A stretch of DNA of 64,000 bases, from assembly GCA_900317935.1 (NCBI GenBank), contig ONIU01000001.1, positions 1 to 64,000 of the forward strand, read 5' to 3'. The translations under genes and the position numbers were made by a program. Positions 6,356 to 46,411 of this stretch are shown piece by piece. The stretch's first letter is position 1. Each line of letters opens with the position of its first letter. This DNA comes from an uncultured bacterium. GTDB lineage: Bacteria; Muiribacteriota; Ozemobacteria; Ozemobacterales; Ozemobacteraceae. The notes below the pieces were generated by a model. It had not been told where the DNA came from. It searched no databases and saw nothing but the letters and a program-made list of their open reading frames with translations.

Positions 6356-8056
6356 ATGAAAAACATAGTTTTATTGCTTATATTTACTGTAATTTCAATT
6401 TATATAGGTTTTTTTGCTTTTGATAAAAATGAAATGTTTTTTATATATGGCAATTATGTTTTTTATTTTATTAGTATCACTTTTTTTATATGGGCTTATT
6501 TATTAATTGATTTTTTAATCTGCAATAAAAGTAAACTATTGAAATTTATTGATTCACACAAATCAGCCATATTTACTTCAGGTATTTTTGTTGCTTTATT
6601 CTTTTTCATTAGTCCTCCAGAATATAGAATACTGGCTGATGAAGCAAATTTATTGTCTACTTCGAAATCTTTGTATGAAAAGAATAATGTTTTTGTTAGT
6701 ATTGAAGAGATTGAACTGCTTGGGGAAAAGCAGTATTTTTCTTTCAGTATGGACAAAAGATTGGTTTTTTTCCCTTATGTATTGCATTTAATCCATTGTA
6801 TAAAAGGGTATTCTCCGAACAATGTGTATATTGTTAATGCTTTTGCTTCATTTGGATGCTTATTTTTTATATATTTTTTAATTCAACGATTATGGGGAAA
6901 ATACTACGGATATATCGCTTTGCTTTTATTGGCTTCTTATCCGCTTTTTATTAGATACTCAATGTCGGCTGGTTATGATGTGTTTAATTTGTTTTGTGCT
7001 TTATTTTCATTTTATATATTTTGCCTATTTTGCAAGAATAATTCATTACAATATGCAAATTTGCTGATATATTCGGTTGCTTTATTGTCATATACTCGCT
7101 ATGAATGCTCTATTATGGCAATTATTGTCTTGTTTGTTGCTCTAATAATATTAAAAAAAGAAGAATTAGGTAAAAAATGTTATGTTTTTTGTGTTTATCC
7201 GCTCTTATTTATTCCTAATGCTTGGATTATGTTTTTTGCTAATACAAACACATATCTGCAGGTTGAAAAAGGTGAAAGTGTTTTTTCTTTAGACTATTTA
7301 ATCAATAATTTATCTAATGCTTTCTACTTTTTTCTAGAATTAGATTCACGCCAAGAAACTGTATTTATTATAGCATTAATGGCTATTTTGTCTGTTTTCT
7401 TGTTATTGGTGAAAATCTCAAAGAATAAGCTTAATTTTGTAACAAAGATAAAAGAATACAAATTTCATCTTTTTATAATAGGCGTTTTCTTATTTATTCA
7501 AATTATAATAAAGTTTTCGTATAAATTTGGAGATTTAACCATTGACGAAAATGCTAGATTTGGAATGACTATATTGCCATATATTATTTTTATGGCGATA
7601 TTTTTTATCTATAATATTGTTAGAATACGAATAAACTATAAAAAAATTATAATAATGCTACTAATTTTTAATATGCTGCAATATTGGGCAAAAACTCAGA
7701 ATAATTTTACTACTAAGGGAAATGGTATTGGTTATTTGGTGTTTAAACATTTAAGATCGTTTATTGGAGAAAATTTTAAAAACAAGAATGATTTCATAGT
7801 TGTTTCTGATTATTCAAATTATCTTACACCATTAAAATATAATTCTATCAGCATTGAAACACTGAATAAAAATTTTGCTTTGTTAAAAGGATATATAAAA
7901 GAAAACAAATATTGGAATAAACTAATTGTTGTTCAAATACTAGAGAATGGGATATATGAAAAAGAATGTGTGGTAAACAAAGAGAATAATTTTGAAGTGA
8001 TATACGAAAAAGCTCTCAAAGACAATCGTAGTATTAGATATTCTGTATATAAGTGA
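6356..8056 (+). CDS. PMT/ArnT-like polytopic glycosyltransferase, paralog 1
   Basis: 566-residue integral membrane protein with about twelve hydrophobic helices. The first periplasmic loop has the acidic pair D95-E96 in RILADEANLLSTSKSLYE, the hallmark position of the catalytic Asp in PMT/ArnT-type (GT-C) transferases, which move sugars from polyprenyl phosphate to lipid or protein. A soluble C-terminal tail follows the last helices. It is preceded by GAGGG and is probably co-transcribed with the GT2 gene. Two paralogs at 24933-26639 and 28712-30469 share the motif, the SFLI..IRYSxSxGYD-type third loop and the overall length. It ends 6 bases from the stop of the convergent YidC chimera, with no terminator between. 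Family level is fairly sure; acceptor and sugar are unknown. Confidence 0.75.
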   Translation: MKNIVLLLIFTVISIYIGFFAFDKNEMFFIYGNYVFYFISITFFIWAYLLIDFLICNKSKLLKFIDSHKSAIFTSGIFVALFFFISPPEYRILADEANLLSTSKSLYEKNNVFVSIEEIELLGEKQYFSFSMDKRLVFFPYVLHLIHCIKGYSPNNVYIVNAFASFGCLFFIYFLIQRLWGKYYGYIALLLLASYPLFIRYSMSAGYDVFNLFCALFSFYIFCLFCKNNSLQYANLLIYSVALLSYTRYECSIMAIIVLFVALIILKKEELGKKCYVFCVYPLLFIPNAWIMFFANTNTYLQVEKGESVFSLDYLINNLSNAFYFFLELDSRQETVFIIALMAILSVFLLLVKISKNKLNFVTKIKEYKFHLFIIGVFLFIQIIIKFSYKFGDLTIDENARFGMTILPYIIFMAIFFIYNIVRIRINYKKIIIMLLIFNMLQYWAKTQNNFTTKGNGIGYLVFKHLRSFIGENFKNKNDFIVVSDYSNYLTPLKYNSISIETLNKNFALLKGYIKENKYWNKLIVVQILENGIYEKECVVNKENNFEVIYEKALKDNRSIRYSVYK

Positions 8057-8062
8057 CCAAAG

Positions 8063-10798
8063 TTAATATTTTAAATCTTTCCAATTTTCTTCATAAAAAA
8101 TATTATCTTTAACAGCCATTATATTTGGATTTTTTTCAAGAATTACTCTATTTGTAGTAAAATGAGACGTATTCCAAAAATTAAGATTTTTATATACTTT
8201 TATTTCACTAGCTTTCTCGTTGTTATATAATTCTTTCCCTGTAAATGGATTTTTAGCGTTATTTATCAAATCTTTTGTAGCAATCCATGGGGTGTCTGCG
8301 TTTGTCATAAATGTATTATCTATTTTTAAATCAGAGTGTTGATTAAAGTCTTTAACCATTAAAAGCGGATTGAAAGGTAAAAGTTTTTCTTTCTCAAATT
8401 TTGATTTTGAAGAGAAATTAAATTCTTTATTGCCATGATCAGATACTATTATGATTCTACTATTATTATAAACATCGGATTGTTTAAGGTAATCTAAGTA
8501 TTCTCCAACTAATATTATTGAGGCCATTGCTGTATGATAAGCCATAAAGCTTAACTCATCGCTAAATATGTTTTTCCCGATGTTGGTTATTGTTTTACTA
8601 TATTTATAAGATGGATATTGGAAAAAATGAATACAATGAGTTAAGTCATTGTGAATAAGAGTAAAAGTATTATTTTCAGAATCAAATTTAGTTATATTTT
8701 TTAAATATAATAAAGAGGTATATGCGCTTATAACAGCATTTTCAGAAAAGTAACATGAATAAATAAGATTTTGGGTTTGTTCAGGTAAAAGATATATACC
8801 ATTATTATATATAAAGCTTTTCAAGTTTCTCGGTGATATCCTTAAAAAGGTATACAAATATAATCGTTTTTGTATTTTTTTATTTGTTTCTTTTTCCATA
8901 AGTATGTCATTTCGAAATTTGCTGTTATATTTGCCAGCCATCTTTATATAGTTCATATCTCTAGAAGAATATATATTGGTAAAATTACTATTATCATAGA
9001 AACGCATGAAAGGATCATTATCCCCTATAGGATCAACTACTGTTGCTAAATAGTTGTTGTTTTTAAATAAACTCATTAACATCAATGAGGATTCCAACCA
9101 TTTTTCTTGAAAATTTCTTTTGTCTTTATCCATATTAAGTGGACTATATTCATAACCGCCAATACATGGTGGATATCCCAACATTGTATTTACTGCAAAA
9201 GAAACTGTGTTTGGATAGAAAACAAAACCAGAATATGTTTTCTTTAATTCAGGTTTTTCCTCTAATATTTTAGGTAGCAAAACTCCCAAAAAGCGGTCTA
9301 AAAAAATAACAATTACGTTTTTTTTATTTTTTGAAAATCTTATATAATTTGATTGTGATAAAAGATTTGTAGTCTTATTTGTATTATCTATATATACAAT
9401 TCCATCTATATATTTTACCAATAGAATACTGGAAACGATTGTTTCTGAAAGCAATAATACGGACCCTAAAATAATAATATATTTTATATAGGATTTTTTT
9501 ATAGCATACCAAGTTAAAGTTAAAATTAATAATAAAACACTAAAGTTAGCTAGTTGAGAATATATATTACCAGAAAGTTTTTCAAGTGTTTCTAAACTTT
9601 CGAAACATAAGTTTGTGTCAACAGTTCCTAGATTATTGCCAAAATTAAGATGATTAAATAAAGAAAACAAATAAAAGGTTAAAAGTATAAATATAAAATA
9701 GACACGTGTTTCTTTTTTCAAAATATAAAAAACAACAGATCCCCAAAATAAATATAGCCCGATGAGAGTGTGTATATTGCCAATAAAAAATTTAGTTATA
9801 TTGCTGGTATTGCCTAATTCTATTTCAAACATATTTAAATCACTAGTAAGCAAACCTAATGGTACTAATAACCCTTGAATAAGAATTAAGCCAAGACTAC
9901 ATAGCAGAAAAATAATTAGTAAATACTTAGTAGAATTTCCCAATGCATTATTAAAATCTTTATAATGATCTTTTCTATATTTTAGCACTCCCAAAACAAT
10001 TATATATGGAAATAACAGTTGTATTATTTGAGAAATTGCAAGCAGTAAACTTCCTAAATCATTTATATAGCAAACAATGAAGAAAAACAGCATGAAAGCA
10101 GATAGTTTATAAACGAATTTTAGAGGTTCATTGTCATCCATATATTTATTCTTCAGCAAGTAAAAAAGATTATTGAATGACCAATATAAAACCAAGGCAG
10201 CTGGAGAGTCATATAGCACAATCAAGAAAAACAACGCCAACCCATATGATTGTATTCTGGTTTTTATTTCTTTTGATTTTATGTATAATTCGATTGATAC
10301 AATATTTATAATAGTCATTACAAAAGGTAAAATATTCAGCTTAAATCCAAAAATGTTAAGCAAACAATCAGGCTTTGATAAATCATCAATAATAAGCCAT
10401 GAATATCCATTCACCAGTTCTAAGTTAGAAAAAAAATGATAAGCTGCTATAAAAAAAGGAATTTGTAGTAAAAGACTAAAAGTGTTCCTAAGAGACATTA
10501 TAGGATTGTAATTGTTTTGGCGATACAAGGTTTGTAGCATAAAAAATTGTTCATCGCCATTAAAATTACGCTTTATCTTTGTTATATATGGCTCAAGATG
10601 TAATAGTATATTCTCTTCTTCCTTTTTAATTTTATCTGCCCTGTAATAGAAAGGCAAACACATTAAGGTAACTGAAAAGCTTATAAAAAAAATAGAACTG
10701 ACTAAATCTAATTCAAAAACGATGAAAAAAATAGAAAATAGAATTTCTATAATAAATTCTAAAGGAGAGATTATTGTATTGAATAGTATCGTTGACAT
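8063..10798 (-). CDS. YidC/Oxa1 domain fused to a sulfatase/LtaS-like phosphotransferase, copy 1
   Basis: 911 residues. Residues 1-220 align with bacterial YidC: ISPLEFIIEILFSIFF, the cytoplasmic hairpin, LYRQNNYNPIMSLRN, LLLQIPFFIAAYHFF, WLIIDDLSKPD, and SPAALVLYWSFNNLFYLLK. The groove Arg of insertases (five residues before the conserved Pro49) is Thr44. Residues 230-465 add about six to seven more helices. Residues 490-890 are an alkaline-phosphatase-superfamily domain: NVIVIFLDRF with Asp501, a candidate Thr nucleophile T538 in TMLGYPP, NDLTHCIH (His721/His724) and VSDHGN (Asp787-His788). Relatives of that domain transfer phosphoglycerol or phosphoethanolamine outside the membrane. Copies 2 and 3 lie in the phosphonate operon. 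Probably an envelope phospho- or phosphono-transferase; the fusion's real role is unknown to me. Confidence 0.8.
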   Translation of the reverse strand: MSTILFNTIISPLEFIIEILFSIFFIVFELDLVSSIFFISFSVTLMCLPFYYRADKIKKEEENILLHLEPYITKIKRNFNGDEQFFMLQTLYRQNNYNPIMSLRNTFSLLLQIPFFIAAYHFFSNLELVNGYSWLIIDDLSKPDCLLNIFGFKLNILPFVMTIINIVSIELYIKSKEIKTRIQSYGLALFFLIVLYDSPAALVLYWSFNNLFYLLKNKYMDDNEPLKFVYKLSAFMLFFFIVCYINDLGSLLLAISQIIQLLFPYIIVLGVLKYRKDHYKDFNNALGNSTKYLLIIFLLCSLGLILIQGLLVPLGLLTSDLNMFEIELGNTSNITKFFIGNIHTLIGLYLFWGSVVFYILKKETRVYFIFILLTFYLFSLFNHLNFGNNLGTVDTNLCFESLETLEKLSGNIYSQLANFSVLLLILTLTWYAIKKSYIKYIIILGSVLLLSETIVSSILLVKYIDGIVYIDNTNKTTNLLSQSNYIRFSKNKKNVIVIFLDRFLGVLLPKILEEKPELKKTYSGFVFYPNTVSFAVNTMLGYPPCIGGYEYSPLNMDKDKRNFQEKWLESSLMLMSLFKNNNYLATVVDPIGDNDPFMRFYDNSNFTNIYSSRDMNYIKMAGKYNSKFRNDILMEKETNKKIQKRLYLYTFLRISPRNLKSFIYNNGIYLLPEQTQNLIYSCYFSENAVISAYTSLLYLKNITKFDSENNTFTLIHNDLTHCIHFFQYPSYKYSKTITNIGKNIFSDELSFMAYHTAMASIILVGEYLDYLKQSDVYNNSRIIIVSDHGNKEFNFSSKSKFEKEKLLPFNPLLMVKDFNQHSDLKIDNTFMTNADTPWIATKDLINNAKNPFTGKELYNNEKASEIKVYKNLNFWNTSHFTTNRVILEKNPNIMAVKDNIFYEENWKDLKY

Positions 10799-18117: not shown

Positions 18118-20745
18118 ATGACAATAAGTTTAGTTTTGTGTTTAACAGTAATATTATTCTTTATTAGATTATTGTCTTTTATTTTTTCTTTTCCAAATAA
18201 TTTTGACAATTTGTGGCGGCCAGGTGCTTTTGTTTCTTTGCCGTCGATTGTTTCTTGGTTATTAATAATTGTATCTATTGTAGTATTAGTTGTTTTTATC
18301 AGAAAATTAAAACAAACAGATAGTAAAACAGGAAATATATTTTTCTTTTATTTGGCAGTGTCTTTTGTTTCTTTATCTCTATTTTATAGAACAATTGAAA
18401 ATACAAACATAACTTACTTGATGTTGCTGATAGCTGCTGACAATCCGTTGTCGGCTATATTGCCAAATCTTACAATAGATTGTTTATATGAATCTCCTTA
18501 TATTCTTTGGTCGTTGGGGTTGATGTTAATAATCTATTATATCTGTTGGAAAAATAATCATATAGAGTATTCTATTCCCTTTTGGATAATTCCTTTTAGT
18601 TTGCTTGGCTTCCATAATAATGATTTTACAATAATAACCATGTTATCTTATTGTTTTCTGGCAATACTAGGAATAACTTTTTCAAAAAATAGAAGTCCGA
18701 TTTATATTCTTTTGCTTCAGTTTTTAATAAATTTGTTTGCCGTTGTATATGTATATATGACTATAAAATTGCATCCAACATATATAACAGCAGCAATTTT
18801 AACTTTACTTGTTTTTTATATTCCATCTTTTATGGTGTTATGGCTGATTTGTAAGAGAAAAAATACGCAATCAATAGCACTTACATGGATTCTACCTCTA
18901 ACCACAGCTTATTTCTTGTTTATACCTCTACTCAGATTAAGGACAACAGATAATCTGATTTATTTAATGTCTTTTTTGAATCTGTTTATTTATTTGGGTA
19001 ATATTTTTCTGATAACAGCCATAATTTCATTGATTTCATTTGTTTCAGAAAGAATAATAAACAAATCGGGCAAATACATTTTCGTATTCTGTTCAATAAT
19101 AACAATTATATTTTATATATTGGATGCCACATTGTTTTATTACAGTCATTTCAGGATAAATTATCAAACCTTAGCCTGGACAATGACTATGAATGATATT
19201 ATAAAAACAACTTTGGTTACTTGTATAAATTATTTATCTCCATTAACTATAATTCTTATATTTACGGTTTTGCTTTCTTCAGTATTCGTTTTATTTAAAA
19301 GTAGAAAAATATTTTCAAACCAAAGTTTTAAAGAATTATTTATATATATATTATTGACATCTCAATTTTCTGTAACTTTATTGCAATTAAGTTCGACAAT
19401 TCCACAGATATTGCGTGACCCCTTCTTTGAACTTATCAGTAGTTTGCCTGTTCCAAAATACTTTAGCAAAGGATTAACAAAAGAAGAAATATTTAAGGGG
19501 TTTGAAGAGTGCAATATTGATTTAAAGAAATATTCGGAAAAAAGTGTTAATACTTATAACAAGAAAGAGAATCTTATTTTTATTACGCTAGAGTCTGTTC
19601 ATTGGCGGTATCTAAACTTATTCGGCAAAGATTCTAAAACTTGGCCTTTAATGAGTAGATTTATAGATAGAATGGAGATTTTCCCTTTTATTTTTTCTCC
19701 TTTCCCAGAGTCTACCTGTGGAGATTATGCGGTTATAACTTCGCTGATTCCTTATAATCACTTATTTATAAATCAAAATCAAAATATGATTCATAAAGGA
19801 ATTGTGAATGAATTAAAGAAGATAAACTACAACACTTATTTATTTTCGTCAGAAAGTCTTTATGATGGTGGTTTAATTAATCTAACAAGAGTATTACCTT
19901 TTGACTATACATTCTCGTTTAATTCTTCTAATAAAGCAGATTCAAAGAATATATGGTCGTGGGGTTATAAGGAAGAATATACTACAAGTGAAATCATAAA
20001 GTTATTGAAACAAAGAAATCCGAATCAACCATATTTTCTATGGTATAGAACCGTATATCCACACGCTCCTTTTGAATTATTTGATGATAAAGATAAATTA
20101 GTTTTTCAGGAAAAGGATAAATTTGGCAGAATAAAGCTATTGTCGAAATACAAGAATGCTCTTTTGTATCTTGACAAGGTTCTATATGACTTTGTTAATA
20201 AAATTACTGAATTAGACAAAATAAACAATCAAAAAACATTGATTGTAATGGTGGGAGATCATGGCGAAATGCTTGAAGAAGAAGAAAATGAAGGTCTTGC
20301 AGGGCATGGGTTATATACTACTGCAAAACTACAGAATGTTGCCTGTATCTTTATAAAGCCAGAAGCAGATGGATTGAAAATAAACGGCAATATAGGTTCA
20401 CAAATAGATATTGTTCCAACAGTTATGGATTATTTAGGAATAGAACCCTCAGTAGAACGCTATGAGCAGGGAATATCTCTATATTCTGAAGAATTGGCAT
20501 CTCGCCCGTTGTATTTGTCTTCAATAGAGTCATATGCTCTAATTGAAAATGGTTACTTTTTTGAATTTCGCGACAAAAGCAGTCCTAATGTTAGAATTTC
20601 AAAGCTTTCTTTTTCTAACGATGATTTAAAAGCGAGTTATGAGAATATTAAGAGTTGGAGTAATAATAAAGAAATATATGAAAAATATAGTAGAGTAAAA
20701 AAGTTTTTTAAATTGCAAGAAGAATTTTTGAATCAATTGAAATGA
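18118..20745 (+). CDS. LtaS-like membrane phosphotransferase (sulfatase fold), paralog A
   Basis: 875 residues. About eleven to twelve hydrophobic helices fill 1-430; 485-800 is an extracytoplasmic alkaline-phosphatase-superfamily domain. Ligands match lipoteichoic acid synthase: Glu492 in FITLESVHWRY, nucleophile Thr533 in PESTCGDYAV, His649 in TVYPHAPF, Asp714-His715 in VGDHGEML, and a further GHG at 730. Such enzymes move phosphoglycerol or related head groups from a lipid to a glycan. The membrane part is far longer than the five helices of LtaS and has a motif RINxQTLAWTMxMxD shared with the paralog at 22226. As the organism looks diderm, classical lipoteichoic acid is not expected; a periplasmic polymer or lipid is the likelier acceptor. 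Confidence 0.82.
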   Translation: MTISLVLCLTVILFFIRLLSFIFSFPNNFDNLWRPGAFVSLPSIVSWLLIIVSIVVLVVFIRKLKQTDSKTGNIFFFYLAVSFVSLSLFYRTIENTNITYLMLLIAADNPLSAILPNLTIDCLYESPYILWSLGLMLIIYYICWKNNHIEYSIPFWIIPFSLLGFHNNDFTIITMLSYCFLAILGITFSKNRSPIYILLLQFLINLFAVVYVYMTIKLHPTYITAAILTLLVFYIPSFMVLWLICKRKNTQSIALTWILPLTTAYFLFIPLLRLRTTDNLIYLMSFLNLFIYLGNIFLITAIISLISFVSERIINKSGKYIFVFCSIITIIFYILDATLFYYSHFRINYQTLAWTMTMNDIIKTTLVTCINYLSPLTIILIFTVLLSSVFVLFKSRKIFSNQSFKELFIYILLTSQFSVTLLQLSSTIPQILRDPFFELISSLPVPKYFSKGLTKEEIFKGFEECNIDLKKYSEKSVNTYNKKENLIFITLESVHWRYLNLFGKDSKTWPLMSRFIDRMEIFPFIFSPFPESTCGDYAVITSLIPYNHLFINQNQNMIHKGIVNELKKINYNTYLFSSESLYDGGLINLTRVLPFDYTFSFNSSNKADSKNIWSWGYKEEYTTSEIIKLLKQRNPNQPYFLWYRTVYPHAPFELFDDKDKLVFQEKDKFGRIKLLSKYKNALLYLDKVLYDFVNKITELDKINNQKTLIVMVGDHGEMLEEEENEGLAGHGLYTTAKLQNVACIFIKPEADGLKINGNIGSQIDIVPTVMDYLGIEPSVERYEQGISLYSEELASRPLYLSSIESYALIENGYFFEFRDKSSPNVRISKLSFSNDDLKASYENIKSWSNNKEIYEKYSRVKKFFKLQEEFLNQLK

Positions 20746-36323: not shown

Positions 36324-39065
36324 TTATCTTGTTTTGGGAAGAATCACTTTTTTCCAGTTAGATTCATTGAATATATCGCCACTGACATGCTTTATTATTG
36401 GATGTTTATCTATAATTACTCTATTTGATGTATAATCTGATGGATTCCAATAGAATAAATTCATATAAATATCTACACCATTTGATTTTCCGTCAGAAGT
36501 TAATATTTTACCCGTAAATGGATTTGCTGCATTTTCTATTAAATCTTTTGTTGCTATGCAAGGAGTATCTGCATTTGTCATAAAAGAATTATCTATACTA
36601 AGTTCAGATTTTTGATTGAAATCTTTCACCAAAAGCAGGGGATTATATGGGGTAATATTTTTATTTTGAAATTCACTATAATGAGGTAAGGTTAAATACC
36701 TATTTCCATGGTCTGAAACAATTATGATTCTGCTATTATCATATACATTATTCTGTCTAAGATAGTCTAAGTATTTTCCTGTCAGAATAACAGCTGCCAT
36801 TGCTGTGTGGTAAGCTTTAAAGCTATTCTCATCTTTAAATTTATTAATACCTGTATTTGTCACTTTATTTACGTATTCATAATTTGGATACTGAAGGTAA
36901 AACATATTATGAGGCAAATCATTGTTGATAAGTGTAAAAGTATTTTTTTCTGAAGTAATTTTGGTGATATCTTTCATATAGGATAAAGAAGCATAAGCTT
37001 CAATAAAGGTTTTTTCTGCAAAAAAGCTGTCTTTATTCCCGTTAGATCTTGCTAGTAAATAGAATCCATTATTATATACAAGATTTTTTAAAATGTTGGG
37101 AACAGTACAAAAATATGAGTATAAATAAATCTTCTTTTGAATCTGTCTTATAGCTTTATAATCATTGGAAGAATCCTGCTGGAATTTAGTGTTATATCTT
37201 CCAGACAATTTAATATACTTTAATCCCCTGGAAGTATAACTGCTGCCAAAAGATTCTTCTTTTTTGGAATTCAAAGAATTATCAAAATAAATGATTGGCT
37301 CAACAACAGTAGAAGAAAAATTATTATTTTTAAATAGAGTAGGGAGCATTAAATTAGCTTCTAACCATTTATCTGTAAAACTTCTTTTGTCTTTATCTAA
37401 AACGAAGGGAGTATATTCATAGCCGCCCACAAGAGGTGGATAACCAAGACAAGTGGCCCCATAGAAAGATACTGTATTTGGAAAATAAACAAAGCCTGGA
37501 AACTTTTCCTTTAATTCGGGTTTTTCATCAAATATCATTGGTAAAAAGCCAGCGGCAAATCTATCTAGAAAAATAACTAAAACATTTTTACCTGAATTAG
37601 ACAATTCTAATTTTTTAGAAAAAGTATCTATTAAGCTGTTATTAAATTTAGTTTTATTGATATAGTTGATACCATTTACGTATTTATATATGTTTATTCC
37701 AGAAACAACTAGTTCAGATGCGAAAATGGCTAAAAGAATAGTTATTGTTTGTTTTGTCTTTTTTTTTCTAAATATGTAAAAAAGAATAGTTATTACAAAG
37801 AGTAAAAATAGTAAATTTGGAATCTGAACGGATAAGCTTCCAAAACATCTTTGAACAGAATCACTGATATCAAATATCAAATCTGGGCTTATTGAACCTA
37901 ATTCCTTTCCTAGGTTCAGGTAATTAATTATTGAACATACATATACTGAAAAATATGTAATCACATAATAAATACGATATTCTTCCGGGGTAAAATAAAA
38001 CAGAATAATCCCCCAGAAAAGATACAAGCCAATATAAGAATAGATATTTTCTGTAATAATTTTTGTAATATAATTCAAGTTATCAAATTGTATTGCAAAA
38101 GATGGCAAATCGCTTGTTAATAATCCTACTGGAATAATGATACCTTGCAGAAGAATTAATCCTATTGCACTAAGAGACATTACAAAAATTAACAATTTAT
38201 TTGAGTAATTATTAAAAAAGTTTAAATGCTTTTTTATATGATTACGAAATATAAAAATTATAAAACCAAATAAAAAAGGGCTGACTATTTTTAACAGATT
38301 TAAATAATTATTTCCTATATCAGCATACCAAGTATAATTCCCCATACATGTCACAATTACACACAATCCAAGAAGGATATAAGCAAACATTTTAGGGTTG
38401 CTATCCATATATTTATTTTTCAGTAAATAAAAGAAGTTATTAAAAGACCAATATATAACTAAAGCCGAGGGTGAGTTATATAAAAGAATCAAAAATAACA
38501 TTGCAAATAAATAAGGTTGTATTCTAGAACTTAGGGGTTTGCCATTTAAATATATTTCACAAGATACAATATTTATTATCGTCATAATAATAGGCATAAT
38601 ATTTATATGTATTCCATTGAAACATAGAAGCATATCTGGCTGAGAAAAATCTTTAAAAATGCCCCATGAATAGTTGTTAAGAAGTTCTAAATTTGAAAAA
38701 AAATGATAAGCAGCAATAAAAAAAGGAATTTGCAGTAATAGGCTGAAAGTATTTCTCAAAGCCATAATTGGATTATAACCATGCTGACGATATAAGGTTT
38801 GCAATAAAAAGAACTGTTCATCGCCTTTGAAATTTTTCTTTATCTTATCTACATTTGGCTTAATTTTAAAAAAAATATCTTCTTCTTCTTTCCGAATTTT
38901 ATCTGCTCTACAATAGAAAGGTAAGCACATTAAAGATATAAAAAAACTAATAAAAAAGATTGAACTAATTATGTCAAATTCTATAATTTGAAAAAAAATA
39001 GTAAATAATATTTCTATTAAATATTCTAAAGGAGAAATAATAATATTATATAATATTATTGACAA
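36324..39065 (-). CDS. YidC/Oxa1 domain fused to a sulfatase/LtaS-like phosphotransferase, copy 3
   Basis: 913 residues. YidC-like part (ISPLEYLIEILF, LYRQHGYNPIMALRN, LLLQIPFFIAAYHFF, SPSALVIYWSFNNFFYLLK) with Ser44 replacing the groove Arg; a middle block of helices; then the catalytic domain with NVLVIFLDRFAAGF, Thr in ATCLGYPPLVGG, NDLPHNMFYLQYP and VSDHGN. The second His of the NDLxHxMH motif is Phe here, the one clear difference from copies 1 and 2. Start is TTG at 39065; its first bases overlap the end of the CDP-glycerol-transferase-like gene by 10, showing translational coupling to the phosphonate genes. Confidence 0.8.
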   Translation of the reverse strand: MSIILYNIIISPLEYLIEILFTIFFQIIEFDIISSIFFISFFISLMCLPFYCRADKIRKEEEDIFFKIKPNVDKIKKNFKGDEQFFLLQTLYRQHGYNPIMALRNTFSLLLQIPFFIAAYHFFSNLELLNNYSWGIFKDFSQPDMLLCFNGIHINIMPIIMTIINIVSCEIYLNGKPLSSRIQPYLFAMLFLILLYNSPSALVIYWSFNNFFYLLKNKYMDSNPKMFAYILLGLCVIVTCMGNYTWYADIGNNYLNLLKIVSPFLFGFIIFIFRNHIKKHLNFFNNYSNKLLIFVMSLSAIGLILLQGIIIPVGLLTSDLPSFAIQFDNLNYITKIITENIYSYIGLYLFWGIILFYFTPEEYRIYYVITYFSVYVCSIINYLNLGKELGSISPDLIFDISDSVQRCFGSLSVQIPNLLFLLFVITILFYIFRKKKTKQTITILLAIFASELVVSGINIYKYVNGINYINKTKFNNSLIDTFSKKLELSNSGKNVLVIFLDRFAAGFLPMIFDEKPELKEKFPGFVYFPNTVSFYGATCLGYPPLVGGYEYTPFVLDKDKRSFTDKWLEANLMLPTLFKNNNFSSTVVEPIIYFDNSLNSKKEESFGSSYTSRGLKYIKLSGRYNTKFQQDSSNDYKAIRQIQKKIYLYSYFCTVPNILKNLVYNNGFYLLARSNGNKDSFFAEKTFIEAYASLSYMKDITKITSEKNTFTLINNDLPHNMFYLQYPNYEYVNKVTNTGINKFKDENSFKAYHTAMAAVILTGKYLDYLRQNNVYDNSRIIIVSDHGNRYLTLPHYSEFQNKNITPYNPLLLVKDFNQKSELSIDNSFMTNADTPCIATKDLIENAANPFTGKILTSDGKSNGVDIYMNLFYWNPSDYTSNRVIIDKHPIIKHVSGDIFNESNWKKVILPKTR

Positions 39066-40327
39066 TTAGAAATCTCCCTCTGTTTCTTTATTAAGAAATC
39101 CACAACATTCTTTGCTCCATTATTCTGTTCTTGCCAAATTTCATTTTTTATCTTAATAATATCGCTAGAAAAATCCTTGGATACAGCTAAAGAATTAATC
39201 ATTTCTTCTATGTTGTCTATATTATCAAGAGTTAATTCTTTACCCAGCTTATCTAAAATACTGTCTCTATAGGTTTTACCAGAATCTAAATCACTTAAAT
39301 CATATATTTCTCTATTATAAGAGCTAAGAGAATAAATACATGGCTTATTGAAAAGAAATAGAAATTCATAAATAATACTTGAAAAATCAGTTATCAAAAT
39401 GTCAGCAGAAGCCATAGCTAGCAGATTGTTGTTTGATAAATCCCATTGAATATTGTCATATTTTGCGAATTGATTTTGTAATTTTTCTATAAGCTTTTTT
39501 TCAGATATTAAACTCTGAGGGTGTGGTCTAACTATAGTTATAAAATTTGTCTTAGCAAGTTTTTCAATAAGTTTATCTCCATAATTAGCTAATATAGCAC
39601 TGTTTCCCCATGAAGGAGCTAGCAAAACTGTAGTTTTTTCTGATTTTTTTACTGCCTTGGGTAAAGATTTAGCCATGGAATCCATAAAAGGAGAACCAAT
39701 TACAACTAGTTCTTTTGGGGGAAGGTTTCTTTTCTTTTCCAATTCTCTTATATAATCTTTTGATTTATCAAAATTTAAAAGTACTGAGTCATAGTAATCC
39801 AATCCAAATAATCTATAAGTTGTTCCTTCGTCAAGACAATGAAAAATATGAGAATAATGCTTAACTAGTTTTGATCTTTTTAAATGAAAAACATCTAATC
39901 CAGGAGTTGTCATTAGGCAAACATCGGCAGACATAAATGCCAGTTTTGAATAGGCTTTATAACCTTGGCCTATATTTTCTACTTTAACGAATTTATAATC
40001 TCTTTGTAAGAAAGGGTCATCTTCTGTAGATACATATACCATAACAGGGCATTGCCTGTTCTCGAATTCATTTATAATATCATTAAAAACATGGTAATAT
40101 CTTTTGTCTTCTGTATAGATTACAATCGGATTGACGTTCTTTGCTGAAGCCTTATCTTTAAAAAAGTATAATTTAAATTTTTCCCATAAAGAAAATACAA
40201 TAAAGAAGAAAACACTGCATATTCCCAATACAATTGAAAAAAGCATTGTTCCTGTTCCTGGATCAACATAAGCATATACTGGTTTTGCCAAGAAAAACAA
40301 AAATATAATTAATACTATAATTTTCAT
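39056..40327 (-). CDS. CDP-glycerol glycerophosphotransferase-like enzyme with N-terminal membrane anchor
   Basis: 423 residues. An N-terminal helix pair with YVDPGTGTMLFSIVLG anchors it; residues 65-410 are the GT-B-like fold of teichoic-acid polymerases (TagF/TarF type): VLLAPSWGNSAI, IVRPHPQSLI (catalytic-type His), and ILITDFSSIIYEFLFLFNKPC. Family members transfer an alcohol phosphate from a CDP-activated donor to a lipid-linked acceptor on the cytoplasmic side. No CDP-glycerol synthase stands alone here, but CMP-AEP enzymes are directly upstream, so this enzyme may transfer AEP from CMP-AEP instead of glycerol phosphate. That is inference from position. 12 bases separate it from the decarboxylase gene. 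Confidence 0.8.
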   Translation of the reverse strand: MKIIVLIIFLFFLAKPVYAYVDPGTGTMLFSIVLGICSVFFFIVFSLWEKFKLYFFKDKASAKNVNPIVIYTEDKRYYHVFNDIINEFENRQCPVMVYVSTEDDPFLQRDYKFVKVENIGQGYKAYSKLAFMSADVCLMTTPGLDVFHLKRSKLVKHYSHIFHCLDEGTTYRLFGLDYYDSVLLNFDKSKDYIRELEKKRNLPPKELVVIGSPFMDSMAKSLPKAVKKSEKTTVLLAPSWGNSAILANYGDKLIEKLAKTNFITIVRPHPQSLISEKKLIEKLQNQFAKYDNIQWDLSNNNLLAMASADILITDFSSIIYEFLFLFNKPCIYSLSSYNREIYDLSDLDSGKTYRDSILDKLGKELTLDNIDNIEEMINSLAVSKDFSSDIIKIKNEIWQEQNNGAKNVVDFLIKKQREISNCQ

Positions 40328-40339
40328 AATATTTTTCTC

Positions 40340-41455
40340 TCAAATAAATAACTTCATAAACTGATTCTTATTTTCTAACGGACTTTTAGTTGGTCTGCCT
40401 AAATCTATTCTAGAACCTAACTGGCATTTAATTTCTATAAAAGATAACTCTCTATTGTTTTTTGCGTAATTTAATTCTTTGTTTAGTTCTTCATAATTGT
40501 TAACTATAGTAGCATATTTGTATCCACAAGCTAACGCGATATTTTTAAAATCAATATGTTCTGCAACAGTAGGCATCCCACCGACGGTTTCATGAGCATA
40601 GTTATTGATCATAATATGAATGAAGTTATCTGGTTTATTTTGTCCAATAACAGCCATTGCTCCCATATGCATTAAAATAGAACCATCACCATCAATACAC
40701 CAAACTCTAGTATCGGGTTTATTTATAGCTATTCCAAGAGCTATGGATGAGCAATGCCCCATAGAGCCAACTGTTAAAAAGTCATATTTATGGCTTTGTT
40801 TTTTTTGTTCCCTGATTTCGAAAAGTTCTCGACTGGCTTTACCTGTGGTTGAAACAATTAAATCATTTTTTGCAGAATCAACAATCTGTCTAATGGCTTC
40901 TTCTCTAGTTATAGTGTTATTGTTTTTATAAACGATATTTTTACTATAAGTTAAAGCCCCTTTTTTTACAACAAAAGCGACGGATTTACCTTGTTCTAAG
41001 TTTGTTTTGAATTTTATCATCTGATTTAAAAGATCTTCTTCAGTCGTTTCCGGGGTTAACACATAATAGTCTATATCTATATCATCAAGAAGTTTTAAAG
41101 TTATTTTGCCTTGAAAAAAATGTTGAGGCTCATCATGAACATTAGGTTCACCACGCCAACCTATAATAAATATTTCAGGAATAGCATATACATCTTTGTT
41201 TAATAAAGATGCTACCGGATTAACTACATTACCTTCTCCACTATTCTGCATATAAACAACAGGAATTTTACCTGTAGCAAGATGGTAGCCTGCTGCTATT
41301 CCTACAGAATTCCCCTCATTAGCAGCAATAATATGATGATTCTTGTCAATGCCGTATTTATCAATTAAACAATTGCATAGTGCTTTAAGTTGAGAATCTG
41401 GAACTCCAGTAAAAAAGTCCGATTCCAATATCTTTATGAATTTATCTGCTTCCAT
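40340..41455 (-). CDS. aepY: Phosphonopyruvate decarboxylase
   Basis: Thiamine-diphosphate enzyme that converts phosphonopyruvate to phosphonoacetaldehyde, pulling the unfavourable PEP mutase reaction. 371 residues. The N-terminus FFTGVPDSQLKALC is diagnostic; AANEGNSVGIAAGYHLATG holds the cofactor-activating Glu; VYMQNSGEGNVVNP follows; the C-terminal half has WCIDGDGSILMHMGA and MINNYAHETVGGMPT for Mg-ThDP. Overlaps the PntC-like gene by 14 bases. Together with the neighbours it gives a complete route to AEP. Confidence 0.95.
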   Translation of the reverse strand: MEADKFIKILESDFFTGVPDSQLKALCNCLIDKYGIDKNHHIIAANEGNSVGIAAGYHLATGKIPVVYMQNSGEGNVVNPVASLLNKDVYAIPEIFIIGWRGEPNVHDEPQHFFQGKITLKLLDDIDIDYYVLTPETTEEDLLNQMIKFKTNLEQGKSVAFVVKKGALTYSKNIVYKNNNTITREEAIRQIVDSAKNDLIVSTTGKASRELFEIREQKKQSHKYDFLTVGSMGHCSSIALGIAINKPDTRVWCIDGDGSILMHMGAMAVIGQNKPDNFIHIMINNYAHETVGGMPTVAEHIDFKNIALACGYKYATIVNNYEELNKELNYAKNNRELSFIEIKCQLGSRIDLGRPTKSPLENKNQFMKLFI

Positions 41456-42149
41456 TGTTAACTTCTTGATTAACCTTATTTAGTTCTTCTACTGTATCTA
41501 TTTCAATAATCTGTTTATCATAAACAGGAAAAATCTTCAACTTCAACTTGTCTAGATTCATATTAACAACATCATCCCAGAACATAGATTCATATCCTGG
41601 TTGTCCATAAGCTTTATCTATAGCCTTAGCTAGAATAGTTGCATCTTTTTGGGTAAAATAAGATATACCGACCATATTATATTTGTCACTCCCTATTTTA
41701 CCAACTCTTTTAATATAGCCAGAATCATTTAACTCAAACAACCAATCATCAGAATAGCCTTTTACCATTTTCCCATAATAACAAGAGTCGTTTAATTCCT
41801 GTTTTAAAATTCTTGAATCTGAAAGATATAAATCTGATTCACAAATATAACAATCATCCTTTTCTAAATATTCTTTTGCATAATAAATAGAAGAAATGTT
41901 GTTAACTGATTTGAAATCAGGATTATAAACCAAGTAAAGATTCTTATATTTGTTAGTTAAATAATTAAACTGTTCAGCCAAATATCCAACAACAACATAT
42001 ATGTTATCAATCCTACGTTCTTCCAAAGCATCTATAATGCTTTCTATCATAGGTTTATTGCCAACTTTTATTAAAGGCTTAGGTGTTTTTTCTGTTAATG
42101 GGTGCATTCTAACACCTAAACCTGAAGCCATTAAAATTGCAATTGTCAT
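41442..42149 (-). CDS. pntC: CTP:2-aminoethylphosphonate cytidylyltransferase (PntC/LicC-like)
   Basis: 235 residues, a single nucleotidyltransferase domain: ILMASGLGVRMHPLTEKTPKPLIKVGNKPMI (key residues of the signature spread over 5-35), a substrate Asp in CYICESDLYLS, and a C-terminal WDDVVNMNLDKLKLKIFP. Closest in pattern to LicC choline-phosphate and PntC AEP cytidylyltransferases. It lies between PEP mutase and the decarboxylase, so CMP-AEP is the expected product; choline phosphate is less likely because no licA/licB/licD is present. Activation with CMP implies the phosphonate is transferred to a macromolecule or lipid. Confidence 0.8.
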   Translation of the reverse strand: MTIAILMASGLGVRMHPLTEKTPKPLIKVGNKPMIESIIDALEERRIDNIYVVVGYLAEQFNYLTNKYKNLYLVYNPDFKSVNNISSIYYAKEYLEKDDCYICESDLYLSDSRILKQELNDSCYYGKMVKGYSDDWLFELNDSGYIKRVGKIGSDKYNMVGISYFTQKDATILAKAIDKAYGQPGYESMFWDDVVNMNLDKLKLKIFPVYDKQIIEIDTVEELNKVNQEVNNGSR

Positions 42150-42166: not shown

Positions 42167-43462
42167 TTATATTTTGTCTATTAAAGTAATTATATCTTTT
42201 ATTGGCATTAGTCTATTGTCAACTTCTTTGGCTCTGTGATATTTCAGAATATCTTTTGCCACACTTTCCATTGCAGGAAATGCTGCTCTTGTCAGTTGAT
42301 TAGCATATATAACTATATTTACCCCATGTTCATGCAATTCTTTTTCTGTAATGGTATTAAACGAAGTTGGAACAACCACAATAGGTGTCTTTTTATTATC
42401 TTTTCTAAATAAGTCACAAAAATTCAATATTTCAGAAGGGTCTTTTTTTCTACTATGAATCATTATTCCATCCGCACCAGCTTTTACAAAAGCATGGGCT
42501 CTTTTAAGAGCATCTTCCATACCTTGCTCAAGAATTAGTGATTCTATTCGTGCAATAATCATAAAATCATCTGATAATTGAACTTTCTTACCTCCTTTAA
42601 TCTTTTCGCAAAAATGTTCAATTGTGTCTTGAGTTTGTTCAACATCTGTTCCAAATAAAGAATTTTTTTTCAAACCTACTTTATCTTCAATTATAACAGC
42701 AGAAACCCCTATTCTTTCTAGGGTTCTAACAGTATAAACAAAATGTTCGACTAATCCACCAGTATCACAATCAAAAATAATTGGTTTTGTCGTAACTTCC
42801 ATCACTTCGGATATTGTATTTATTCTAGAAGTTAAATCAACCAATTCAATATCGGGTTTCCCTTTTGCTGTAGAATCACATAGAGAAGAAATCCACATAG
42901 CATCAAATTGATCGAATTCTCCATTATTTTCTATTACAGTTTTTTCTGCTATAAGACCAGTTAAACCACTATGAACTTCAATAGCTTTTACCAAACCACG
43001 AATTTTTAATAACTGTCTTAATGCCTTTCTTCTATATTCAGGCATTGCACGTTTTTCTCTAATTTTATTATCTATTAGTTTTGTTTTTTCACTATAGGTA
43101 TAAGGAACTTCAATAAGTTCCCCACCAAATTGCTTCAATAAACCTATAACATTATTCCTTATAGCTTGTTCAGCACCAGTTTTCCAGTTATCTCCATGAA
43201 TTATATAATCAGGCTTTATATTTTGAAAAACTTCATCATACATTATGTTATTTTGAACAACAACTTCATCAACATCTTCTAAATTTTGAACAAGTTTTAT
43301 TCTTTCCTCAAAAGTTATTGTGGGAAATTTATTATAACGAATCATTGCTCTGTCAGATAAAACGCCAACTATAACTTTCCCATATTTTTTTGCATGATTA
43401 ATAATGTTTAAATGACCGTCATGTATAACATCAGTACAAAAACAAGCATAAACTGTTTTCAT
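42167..43462 (-). CDS. aepX: PEP mutase with N-terminal cytidylyltransferase-like domain
   Basis: 431 residues. Residues 1-140 form a TagD-like nucleotidyltransferase fold with HDGH at 14-17 and a GDNW; the usual C-terminal RTxGISST loop is only loosely kept (YTYSEKTKL), so activity is doubtful. Residues 145-431 are phosphoenolpyruvate mutase: IFDCDTGG (229-236) and the defining EDKVGLKKNS (259-268), where EDK-x5-NS separates mutases from isocitrate-lyase relatives. It makes the C-P bond by converting PEP to phosphonopyruvate. The four-base overlap with the transaminase gene indicates coupling. Similar fusions exist in other phosphonate clusters; the role of the front domain is unclear. Confidence 0.93.
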   Translation of the reverse strand: MKTVYACFCTDVIHDGHLNIINHAKKYGKVIVGVLSDRAMIRYNKFPTITFEERIKLVQNLEDVDEVVVQNNIMYDEVFQNIKPDYIIHGDNWKTGAEQAIRNNVIGLLKQFGGELIEVPYTYSEKTKLIDNKIREKRAMPEYRRKALRQLLKIRGLVKAIEVHSGLTGLIAEKTVIENNGEFDQFDAMWISSLCDSTAKGKPDIELVDLTSRINTISEVMEVTTKPIIFDCDTGGLVEHFVYTVRTLERIGVSAVIIEDKVGLKKNSLFGTDVEQTQDTIEHFCEKIKGGKKVQLSDDFMIIARIESLILEQGMEDALKRAHAFVKAGADGIMIHSRKKDPSEILNFCDLFRKDNKKTPIVVVPTSFNTITEKELHEHGVNIVIYANQLTRAAFPAMESVAKDILKYHRAKEVDNRLMPIKDIITLIDKI

Positions 43463-44604
43463 TTAGAGTTCTCCTTGTTATAACACACAGGGATAGTAAT
43501 GTTATAAGTATTCAAAGCCTCTTTCAACACAATAAAGAAATTTTTAATATCATCTTCATCTATGGCTCCTAATGCGCAAAGCCTAAATGTATTAGTTGAA
43601 GATATTTTCCCTGGATATATTGTATATCCTCTTTCATAACAATAATCGTGTATTTTTTCAAAATTCCAGTTTTTATCATCAGGATACAGAACAGAAACGA
43701 CTAACCCTGTCTGTAATTCTCTTTTTATATAGTCTTTAAATCCTAATTCTTCCAAACCTTTATGAATAGCATTAAATACTCTTGTATGTCTCTGCCATTT
43801 AGCTACTTCACCTTCTTTAAAATATTCTTTCAATCCTTGTATAGCAGCATAAACAGTTTGAACTGGTGGCGTAAAATGCATTTGACCAGTCTTTTCAAAA
43901 TAATCATATTGTAAATATAGGTTACAATAATATGAACGTTTAGGATAGTTTCTAGATTGCTTAATAATTTCTTCTTTACCAATAATAAAAGATAAACCAG
44001 CCATAGCTTGTATGCCTTTTTGGGCAGATGCCATGCAAAAATCTATATTATCTTTTTCAACATCTATTGGTCTCATTGCAAGAGTAGAAGTAGTATCTAC
44101 TATAAAAGTACATCTATATTGGTGTGCTAAAGCCCCAATTTCTCTAATGGGATTCAAAATACCAGTTCCTGTTTCATTATGAGTAGTATAAACCAATTCA
44201 ATATCTGGATTATTTTTTAAAGTATCTTCAACCAATTTCAAATCAGGAATCTCGTTGAGTGGAAATTGCAAATTAATATGTGGCAATCCATAATATTCAC
44301 ATATTTCAACTGCACGAGAACTATATGCTCCATTATTAATTACCAATACTTTCTTGTTTTCGGGTAATAGAGAATTTAAACAGACATCAATGTTTAATGT
44401 TCCAGAACCACAAAAGAGTACAGACGTATATTTTTTATGATCTGCATGAACAATTTTTAACAAACCCAGCCTTAATTCCTTCATTAGATCAACAAATTCT
44501 TTTTCTCTAGGGCAAATATCTGGTATAAGCTGAGCAAATTTTACGCTATCAGTAGTGGTAGCAGGGCCGGGATTTAATAAGATATTACGTTTAATATTTA
44601 TCAT
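43459..44604 (-). CDS. aepZ: 2-aminoethylphosphonate transaminase (AEP synthesis direction)
   Basis: PLP-dependent class V aminotransferase, 381 residues from ATG 44604. ILLNPGPATTTDSVKFAQ and DICPREKEF are typical of PhnW-type enzymes; FCGSGTLNIDV binds the cofactor phosphate; DTTSTLAMRPID holds the ring Asp; the Schiff-base Lys is in SAQKGIQAMAG. The context (pepM, aepY, pntC) shows it makes AEP from phosphonoacetaldehyde rather than degrading it. An in-frame start exists 14 codons upstream at 44646, but GAGGAAAG lies 7 bases before 44604 and the family starts at this point; 44604 also removes an overlap with the upstream gene. Confidence 0.9.
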   Translation of the reverse strand: MINIKRNILLNPGPATTTDSVKFAQLIPDICPREKEFVDLMKELRLGLLKIVHADHKKYTSVLFCGSGTLNIDVCLNSLLPENKKVLVINNGAYSSRAVEICEYYGLPHINLQFPLNEIPDLKLVEDTLKNNPDIELVYTTHNETGTGILNPIREIGALAHQYRCTFIVDTTSTLAMRPIDVEKDNIDFCMASAQKGIQAMAGLSFIIGKEEIIKQSRNYPKRSYYCNLYLQYDYFEKTGQMHFTPPVQTVYAAIQGLKEYFKEGEVAKWQRHTRVFNAIHKGLEELGFKDYIKRELQTGLVVSVLYPDDKNWNFEKIHDYCYERGYTIYPGKISSTNTFRLCALGAIDEDDIKNFFIVLKEALNTYNITIPVCYNKENSK

Positions 44605-44620
44605 ATTTCTTTCCTCAAAA

Positions 44621-46411
44621 CTACTCATTGATATAAAAGCCATCATTGATTGTGGAACTAAATAAAACTAAGTTTTTTTCGGGCTCAGGTGTTGCTGGTA
44701 AATCTGAATCCCAAGGTTGCTTTCCTTGAGCAGGAACCAGAAGTTTTAAGCCAGAATTTGTTACAAATGTTTTCATCGGAAGTTTTTTCAATGTTATCAT
44801 TCCGCAAAAACCAAATTCACCCATGGAATAGCTTATGCTGAAACACCAAATAAAAATCAATACAGAATAAAACATCATGAATGTTTTTATTTTTTTGTTT
44901 ATTTGTAATTTAGGGTAAGCTGCTTTTGTCATAAGAATACTTGTAACGAACAGCAATATAAACATTCCATTTGCAAATCTGAAATCTGGAACAGTAATAA
45001 ACCAAATAACGATAGAAAGAAATTCTATTATAAGTAAACTTAGCAGAATATAACTTTGGTTTAGCAATTCTTTATTTTTAAAATAAGTAGCAAGCCAAAC
45101 AATAAAAAGGATAATTGAAGTAATAAACATGGTTAAAGATCCTGTTCCCCACATAAATTCTGTCATGGGGAAAACTATGAGTAAAACAGCATCTTTAATA
45201 TAATTTAATAAGTCTTTTTCAATAAAAAAACGATTAGTATCAATAAAATTCCATTTAAACCAAAATTCAAACCATTCGTTGTTTTTTACCATTGGTTCGT
45301 TTATATCAAAGCTTTGTCCGCAAGTTCTTGCAGAAGCATAAATAGAGTTTCTTTGATTAAGAGCTATTCTATCAGGAACTGTCCAGGCAAAATTAATTTT
45401 TCCAATAGAGGATGGATAAGCAAGATATCCCGTTTGGATATATCCTCTAATTATCCATATTGTGAAAAGGATTACTATAAAAACAAAAGATCGTTGAATA
45501 ATCTTTTTTTCAAATTGTTCAAAAGTAAATTTTTTAGTAAACAAGAAGGTAGTAATTCCAAAGCCTAATGCGAGAATAGCATTGCTTAATTTTATACATA
45601 CCATAAAAGCAGATAAAACAGCAGCAAAGGCAATGTAACTGCTTCTTTCTTTTGAATTGCTATTATAAAAAAATACTTCAAGCAAATATTTGAAAACAAC
45701 GATTTGAATTAACGTTGACGCTATATCAGGAGTGGGGTTATTTATCCAGTAGTAAGGCATCGGAATAAAGAAAAATAAGCAAAGCAAAAGTAAATCAATA
45801 AATGTTCCGCCTAGAATCATTCCTACAGCATATATTGCGTATAAAAATCCATTTGCTGCATGAAAAGCATAATCATTAAGAAAAGGATGAAAATTTAAAG
45901 AAGCTGCATACAAGAAATATAATTGATTAAAACCAAGTCTATCATGTAAATTTCCTATTCCTTTGACAATGTGACATTCATTTGCCCATCTGATAGAATT
46001 TAAATGATAATAACCAGTGTCAAAATTAAGTGGAAGCTGGATAGATACTGCAGATGCAGCAAATATTGTAAAAATAATAGCGGTTAGTTTTAACCAGCCA
46101 ATAGACTTTAAAAAATATGGCAGTTTTATACTGTATTTAATAAGAAAGAATATTATTGCTGGAATGAAAAAAACTATGCTTGCTGTTAAATTTATGGGTA
46201 AAAATAAATGGTAAATAGAGAAAAAGAATATTGAAAAAGTCCAGCCTAACCAAATATTTTTGATTAAACCTTTATTCCCAGAAATATTTATATTTAGTAT
46301 TTTAGAAAAGAAACGTCCCCATGAAAAATAAGAGATTGCTAGTAAAAACCAAGCAAGTATCATTAGTAAAGAATCTCTACAAAAGGTAAATACATCAAAA
46401 GGCAAGTTCAT
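44621..46411 (-). CDS. LIC_10190-like polytopic membrane protein, paralog 2
   Basis: 596 residues, about thirteen helices, collinear with the protein at 31638: FDTGYYHLNSIRWANECHI, GIGNLHDRLGFNQLYFLY, IPMPYYWINNPTPDIAS, and a C-terminal PWDSDLPATPEPEKNL. The two paralogs bracket the phosphonate operon, one as second gene and one as last. Probably a glycan polymerase or GT-C transferase for the same polymer; function unproven. Overlaps pseF by 4 bases and precedes aepZ by 16. Confidence 0.65.
   Translation of the reverse strand: MNLPFDVFTFCRDSLLMILAWFLLAISYFSWGRFFSKILNINISGNKGLIKNIWLGWTFSIFFFSIYHLFLPINLTASIVFFIPAIIFFLIKYSIKLPYFLKSIGWLKLTAIIFTIFAASAVSIQLPLNFDTGYYHLNSIRWANECHIVKGIGNLHDRLGFNQLYFLYAASLNFHPFLNDYAFHAANGFLYAIYAVGMILGGTFIDLLLLCLFFFIPMPYYWINNPTPDIASTLIQIVVFKYLLEVFFYNSNSKERSSYIAFAAVLSAFMVCIKLSNAILALGFGITTFLFTKKFTFEQFEKKIIQRSFVFIVILFTIWIIRGYIQTGYLAYPSSIGKINFAWTVPDRIALNQRNSIYASARTCGQSFDINEPMVKNNEWFEFWFKWNFIDTNRFFIEKDLLNYIKDAVLLIVFPMTEFMWGTGSLTMFITSIILFIVWLATYFKNKELLNQSYILLSLLIIEFLSIVIWFITVPDFRFANGMFILLFVTSILMTKAAYPKLQINKKIKTFMMFYSVLIFIWCFSISYSMGEFGFCGMITLKKLPMKTFVTNSGLKLLVPAQGKQPWDSDLPATPEPEKNLVLFSSTINDGFYINE

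Follow-up and report, generated by a model that had tools for sequence, protein, structure and literature searches.

YidC normally acts as a machine for protein insertion into membranes, and to our knowledge no member of the insertase family has a dedicated lipid task. YidC-family insertases do scramble lipids robustly in vitro, and they also do so in simulation (PMC10491306). For phosphonate tailoring of bacterial surfaces, the T. denticola PntC-AEPT enzyme has been solved in complex with CMP-AEP, and the same study calls the later tailoring steps enigmatic and leaves YidC, sulfatase and TagF unmentioned (Rice et al. 2019, PMC6697681). Here we describe a membrane protein, carried by some gut and rumen bacteria, in which a YidC/Oxa1 module is joined through a second membrane block to a predicted extracytoplasmic domain of the alkaline-phosphatase (AP) superfamily. 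The kind of enzyme is already known; its combination with an insertase fold is new as far as we can tell, and a literature search turned up no paper describing a fusion of YidC with a sulfatase or with LtaS and, apart from a single chance co-mention, no paper that connects YidC with phosphonates.

The window, that is the whole stretch of 64,000 nucleotides analysed, belongs to a contig of 93 kb in a genome of 4.5 Mb (G000) from an uncultured bacterium, a Candidatus Riflebacteria of rumen type. A preliminary description of this DNA had placed at 8063-10798 a YidC fold, with the motifs LLLQIPFF, DLSKPD and SPAALVLYW, ahead of a second membrane block and an LtaS-like catalytic domain. The minus-strand open reading frame at these positions encodes 911 residues and contains all three motifs, and the three-part order is real in this copy as well as in the two paralogs described at 33495 and 36324, which share the domain order and are 51-53% identical to fusion 1 (Table 1). 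An assembly chimera, already rejected in that description, is ruled out because independent genomes hold the same chain, in addition to the three intact paralogs. The genome has one ordinary YidC, located elsewhere (contig C178, 558 aa), and the three window fusions are therefore extra to the housekeeping protein. Dedicated ordinary YidC proteins are likewise present in G003 and G382, and replacement of the housekeeping YidC by a fusion was ruled out in all three genomes.

Table 1. Positions of the fusion proteins, their predicted domains and putative catalytic residues, and the genes of the adjoining operon in the window
Feature	Position	Strand	Basis or remark
YidC-AP fusion protein 1	8063..10798	-	911 aa
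Fusion 1 YidC/Oxa1 domain, residues 1-222	10133..10798 (Pfam match 10139-10696)	-	PF02096 E 6.4e-20; Foldseek YidC 3wo7/3wo6
Fusion 1 second membrane block, residues 223-485, ~7 TM helices, fast evolving	9344..10132	-	Hydropathy and positive-inside count, by eye
Fusion 1 predicted extracytoplasmic AP domain, residues 486-911	8066..9343	-	AF2 pTM 0.75; Foldseek LtaP/LtaS/YejM/MCR-1
D501, putative first metal ligand	9296..9298	-	Conserved in both subfamilies
T538, putative nucleophile	9185..9187	-	Conserved in both subfamilies; spacing as in other AP proteins
D787-H788, putative SDHG metal motif	8435..8440	-	Conserved in both subfamilies
YidC-AP fusion protein 2, 930 aa	33495..36287; Pfam YidC match 35628-36191	-	PF02096
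YidC-AP fusion protein 3, 913 aa	36324..39065; Pfam YidC match 38406-38963	-	10-base overlap with TagF-like gene
TagF-like transferase; N-terminal Y-x-D-P-G-T-G, membrane hairpin, RPHP motif kept	39056..40327	-	PF04464 E 4.7e-11
Phosphonopyruvate decarboxylase (PPD)	40340..41455	-	TIGR03297 465 bits
LicC/PntC-like cytidylyltransferase	41442..42149	-	Nearest solved structure LicC 1jyk E 1e-34; T. denticola PntC 6pd1 also matches
Phosphoenolpyruvate (PEP) mutase, N-terminal cytidylyltransferase-like domain	42167..43462	-	TIGR02320 416 bits
2-Aminoethylphosphonate (AEP) aminotransferase (PhnW)	43459..44646	-	TIGR03301 460 bits

Residues 35-220 of fusion 1 match PF02096 with E 6.4e-20 (72 bits, cut-off 35) and the paralogs match it with E 5.2e-23 (fusion 2) and E 4.7e-19 (fusion 3), so that all three window copies stand above the curated cut-off in the profile search proposed in the preliminary description. 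The NCBIfam model of the YidC C-terminal domain gave E 1e-20 to 8.5e-22, with scores somewhat short of the 84.3 bits that this model requires. A profile built from the fusion family matches solved YidC structures (E 1.6e-12). The full-length fusion model is poor (mean pLDDT 48), and its only strong Foldseek matches are YidC structures (B. halodurans YidC 3wo7, E 8e-4, TM-score 0.65 by target length). With its significant 60KD_IMP match and five-helix core the module belongs to the YidC/Oxa1 fold; neither a missing YidC match nor a fold unlike Oxa1, the outcomes set against this assignment beforehand, was encountered with PF02096 or Foldseek.

A survey of genomes for the same architecture, likewise proposed beforehand, recovered it in a sister species; of 248 Elusimicrobiota genomes, at least 12 also carry it. 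The sister genome (G003) is of the same genus as the window genome and is recorded as Candidatus Riflebacteria from reindeer. In the window's own phylum 2 of 40 genomes have the fusion. The Elusimicrobiota count (G382, G407, G432, G456, G457, G476, G478, G498, G510, G524, G528 and G571) includes broken or contig-split copies and is a lower bound because the search scores few candidates per genome; these fusions fall into two subfamilies. When genome contigs were scanned, G003 and an Elusimicrobiaceae MAG were the only ones to show the AP domain. Profile searches of ~345 genomes of other phyla yielded no fusion-length open reading frame, a search of viral contigs and phages no fusion, and one of plasmids ordinary YidC only. 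In a tree of 15 fusion YidC domains and 60 canonical YidC rows, rooted at the midpoint only, the fusions form one group (support 100/100) within which the Riflebacteria copies group with those of Elusimicrobiota subfamily 1 (100/97), suggesting that the fusion may have been transferred between phyla. Both tandem fusions of G003 (L038, G003:C40, 4483-7207 and 7307-10025) are interrupted by a change of frame, in each case at the same place close to residue 140, which may reflect pseudogenes, a shared assembly error or something else.

The catalytic part is harder to place by sequence, and here the profile search bore out the preliminary description only in part: the Sulfatase profile stayed below its cut-off in the window copies (PF00884, E 0.0012 at best) and passed it in the G407 homolog, where PF00884 (35.5 bits) and PF02096 (71 bits) lie in one chain. 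A model of residues 480-911 built from five sequences (AF2, pTM 0.75, pLDDT 64) retrieved LtaP and LtaS first when compared with the PDB by Foldseek (E 6e-8, probability 1.00), followed closely by S1 sulfatases, YejM/PbgA and MCR-1 (hits E 6e-8 to 4e-6). The model, these matches and the G407 profile match assign subfamily 1 to the AP fold; subfamily 2 has sub-threshold PF00884 matches and the motifs only, and the AP domains of the two subfamilies match each other weakly when their profiles are compared. Asp501, Thr538, Asp787 and His788 are conserved in full-length sequences of both subfamilies, the model having low pLDDT around Thr538, and by analogy with LtaS and EptA they plausibly constitute the complete metal and nucleophile set that had been claimed for this domain. 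We prefer Thr538 to Thr531, which was dropped as nucleophile, because the former recurs in the second subfamily and is spaced as in other AP proteins. The YidC domain is predicted to end in the cytoplasm and is followed by about seven helices with positive inner loops. The helices called vary from row to row; their number and the positive-inside pattern would agree with an external AP domain. The window also encodes two AP-superfamily membrane proteins of 875-876 aa without YidC, at 18118-20745 and 22226-24856 (PF00884 92 and 107 bits).

Fusions 3 and 2 are encoded at the end of an operon with the order PhnW, PEP mutase, LicC/PntC-like cytidylyltransferase, PPD, TagF-like gene, fusion 3, fusion 2, whereas the copy at 8063 stands apart from the AEP genes. 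Having PEP mutase, PPD, AEP aminotransferase and a PntC/LicC-type cytidylyltransferase side by side, it qualifies as an AEP (Ppm/Pnt) biosynthetic operon. PF04464 and the RPHP motif assign the TagF-like protein to the TagF-type glycerophosphotransferases, and a sequence search matched it to no solved structure. Surface glycan genes lie around the operon (6356-8056, 24933-26639, 28712-30469, 31638-33437, 44621-46411, 46408-47127, 53457-55382 and 58008-59060) and comprise PMT_2-like membrane proteins, two families without a Pfam match, a CTP_transf_3 cytidylyltransferase, a Maf/MptE-like flagellin glycosyltransferase and, by eye, a NeuB-like synthase. Beyond the window end, a single open frame of 4031 codons (L041, G000:C171, 5436-17528) probably encodes a giant surface protein.

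The same association recurs in other genomes. G478 has the gene order of the window operon as far as the first fusion, at which point the contig runs out, and fusion, TagF-like and AEP genes are also linked in G003, G407, G571 and G432; next to the G571 fusions lies a cytidylyltransferase-aminotransferase that matches T. denticola PntC-AEPT along its full length (E 1e-244). A TagF-like gene, sought with a profile built from fusion neighbours, is present in 12/12 fusion-bearing and 2/236 other Elusimicrobiota (Fisher p 1e-18, relatedness ignored), and in one of the two exceptions (G581) the contig breaks inside TagF, beside AEP genes. PEP mutase occurs in 6/12 fusion-bearing genomes against 5/236 others; none was seen in the remaining 6/12, in which draft assemblies may hide genes. 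At least five of these six have other aminotransferase and cytidylyltransferase genes, namely an aminotransferase with a glycerol-3-phosphate-cytidylyltransferase-like gene instead in G510, G456, G498 and G457, and a cytidylyltransferase fused to a CobD-like enzyme in G382. These gene sets may represent alternative routes to a CDP-amino-alcohol, for example CDP-ethanolamine, an isostere of CMP-AEP. In G528 a 1009-residue open frame cut by the contig end (L122, G528:C34, 11062-14088) combines PntC-like, aminotransferase and PEP mutase domains and, on this predicted domain content, is a one-chain CMP-AEP synthesis enzyme.

The AP fold and the AEP operon context, including the AP protein without YidC in the corresponding slot of a phosphonate operon in G423, together argue that the fusions are probably AP-type head-group transferases of surface AEP/ethanolamine tailoring, in line with the function favoured in the preliminary description. 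From gene context the head group is probably AEP, and perhaps ethanolamine phosphate in operons without PEP mutase. To the fuller reading, in which the fusion decorates an extracytoplasmic acceptor with AEP by a stepwise course that includes donor handling by the YidC module, we assign a probability of roughly 0.5. In this course, PEP mutase, decarboxylase and aminotransferase would make AEP and the LicC/PntC-type enzyme CMP-AEP, as expected from homology to characterised enzymes, and the TagF-like protein, working at the cytoplasmic face of the membrane, would transfer the group of CMP-AEP onto a lipid. Next, the YidC part of the fusion, whose groove has small polar residues, would pass or present the lipid-linked donor across the membrane to the external AP domain, which, by analogy with LtaS and EptA, would take the head group on Thr538, with metal at Asp501/Asp787/His788, and transfer it to a surface glycan, lipid or glycoprotein.

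That the YidC module serves or handles a lipid-linked donor is a tentative proposal, which we put ahead of TagF docking and of protein-acceptor insertion because YidC-family proteins scramble lipids, because the cytosolic CMP-form must reach an external active site and because the altered polar groove fits a changed cargo. The slow evolution of the module and its new invariants T162, N165 and S198 count in favour as well. In its boldest form, that an Oxa1-superfamily domain has left insertion for a part in a lipid-handling enzyme, so that a phosphono-head-group lipid coming from the TagF-like protein is moved by its groove, or presented there, to the AP transferase, the proposal is speculative, and the TagF-like protein might already act on the final acceptor, with another task left to the AP domain. 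The appearance of YidC in an MCR-1 pull-down list was set aside as too unspecific.

The YidC module could instead be only a membrane anchor and a docking platform for the TagF-like partner, with all catalysis by the AP domain, which we consider unlikely. Wherever the flank is complete, the TagF-like gene does lie within ~25 bases of at least one fusion, as docking might predict, and in G423 the same slot is filled by an AP-superfamily membrane protein without YidC: there PEP mutase, PPD, Fe-ADH and TagF-like genes (L152, G423:C8, 3273-9466; the Fe-ADH makes hydroxyethylphosphonate the likely product) are followed directly by this protein (PF00884 72 bits). The arrangement in G423, the most telling of these cases, assigns the AP domain to the phosphonate pathway and identifies YidC as an extra module. 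A plain anchor, however, need be neither the most conserved part of the chain nor a keeper of buried polar invariants, and the middle block already supplies about seven helices. In all pairs examined the YidC part is the most conserved; among the window paralogs identity is 65-71% in YidC, 31-34% in the middle block and 54-59% in the AP domain, and dN is 0.21-0.25, 0.60-0.69 and 0.30-0.35, respectively. Since synonymous sites are near saturation, this conservation implies that the YidC module is under selection and is not a relic. Fusion-specific invariants include E61, Y97, S108, A119, T162, N165 and S198. In the tandem fusions of G571 (L114, G571:C9, 4646-7153 and 8458-10929), the YidC segment has 94% DNA identity and a dS of 0.27, against ~60% and 1.3-1.7 in the rest; near-identity at synonymous sites indicates that the segment was homogenised by recombination (gene conversion) while the rest diverged.

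Somewhat less likely still is that the YidC module has remained an insertase or chaperone, handing a nascent membrane protein or lipoprotein to the AP domain for modification on emergence. The module, slowest evolving of the three parts, keeps the fold-defining residues P49, Y92, P99, Q112, P114, L140, D144, P199, Y205 and W206, and genes of the protein-glycosylation type (PMT_2-like, Maf) are present in the window. The groove, on the other hand, has changed: the basic or amide residue typical of insertases in the first core helix is R, K or Q in 58/60 canonical rows (R 15, K 22, Q 21, N 1, one gap), and Q in the canonical YidC of G382, but in 0/15 fusions (T 5, S 5, N 4, H 1, of which N is also an amide). 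Position 108 is S in 15/15 fusions and P in 60/60 canonical rows, and the C1 hairpin of the fusions carries insertions. The ordinary YidC of G000, G003 and G382 is available for insertion, and the phosphonate operon suggests a small head group rather than a protein client. Three canonical-length YidC proteins of one family (L006, L125 and L126, from G051, G338 and G199) have both C1-hairpin insertions of the fusions and keep the groove Arg.

A hydrolase of phosphonate or sulfate esters for recycling or scavenging, with no transferase activity, is very improbable: sequence matches of the AP domain do include S1 sulfatases and a phosphonate monoester hydrolase, but the best structural matches are membrane transferases or their relatives, the operon is a biosynthetic one that includes cytidylyl activation, and the fusion has more than ten membrane helices.

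If donor handling by the YidC module is true, the fusion would be the first insertase fold to have a lipid as its dedicated substrate, and it would supply the missing last step of phosphonate surface tailoring. A dedicated lipid task is testable in this family because a possible donor pathway, partner and enzyme lie in one operon, and for the transfer steps in phosphonate tailoring by bacteria, termed enigmatic (PMC6697681), the fusion provides a concrete candidate.

Among known systems, the YidC/Oxa1/Alb3 insertases (PF02096) have the fold and conserved core in common with residues 35-220 of fusion 1, whereas the fusions form a separate clade with T/S/N/H for R/K/Q in the groove and an altered C1 hairpin, lack the P1 domain, and are joined to a membrane block and an enzyme. 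With LtaS and LtaP the fusion has in common the AP fold (as predicted), the type of a putative Thr nucleophile and, by prediction, an external catalytic domain on a membrane anchor; it differs in its 11-15% identity, in having ~12 helices rather than 5, and in an operon that makes AEP and no glycerol phosphate polymer. The EptA/MCR phosphoethanolamine transferases likewise have the AP fold, with a small amino head group likely and a ping-pong transfer expected in common; identity to them is low, and the fusion has a YidC module and is coupled to CMP-AEP synthesis and a TagF-like gene. Finally, the PntC/LicC phosphonyl tailoring pathway (Rice et al. 2019, PMC6697681) has PEP mutase, decarboxylase, aminotransferase and cytidylyltransferase in common with the fusion operons, and the G571 enzyme is a full-length relative of its Tde1415.
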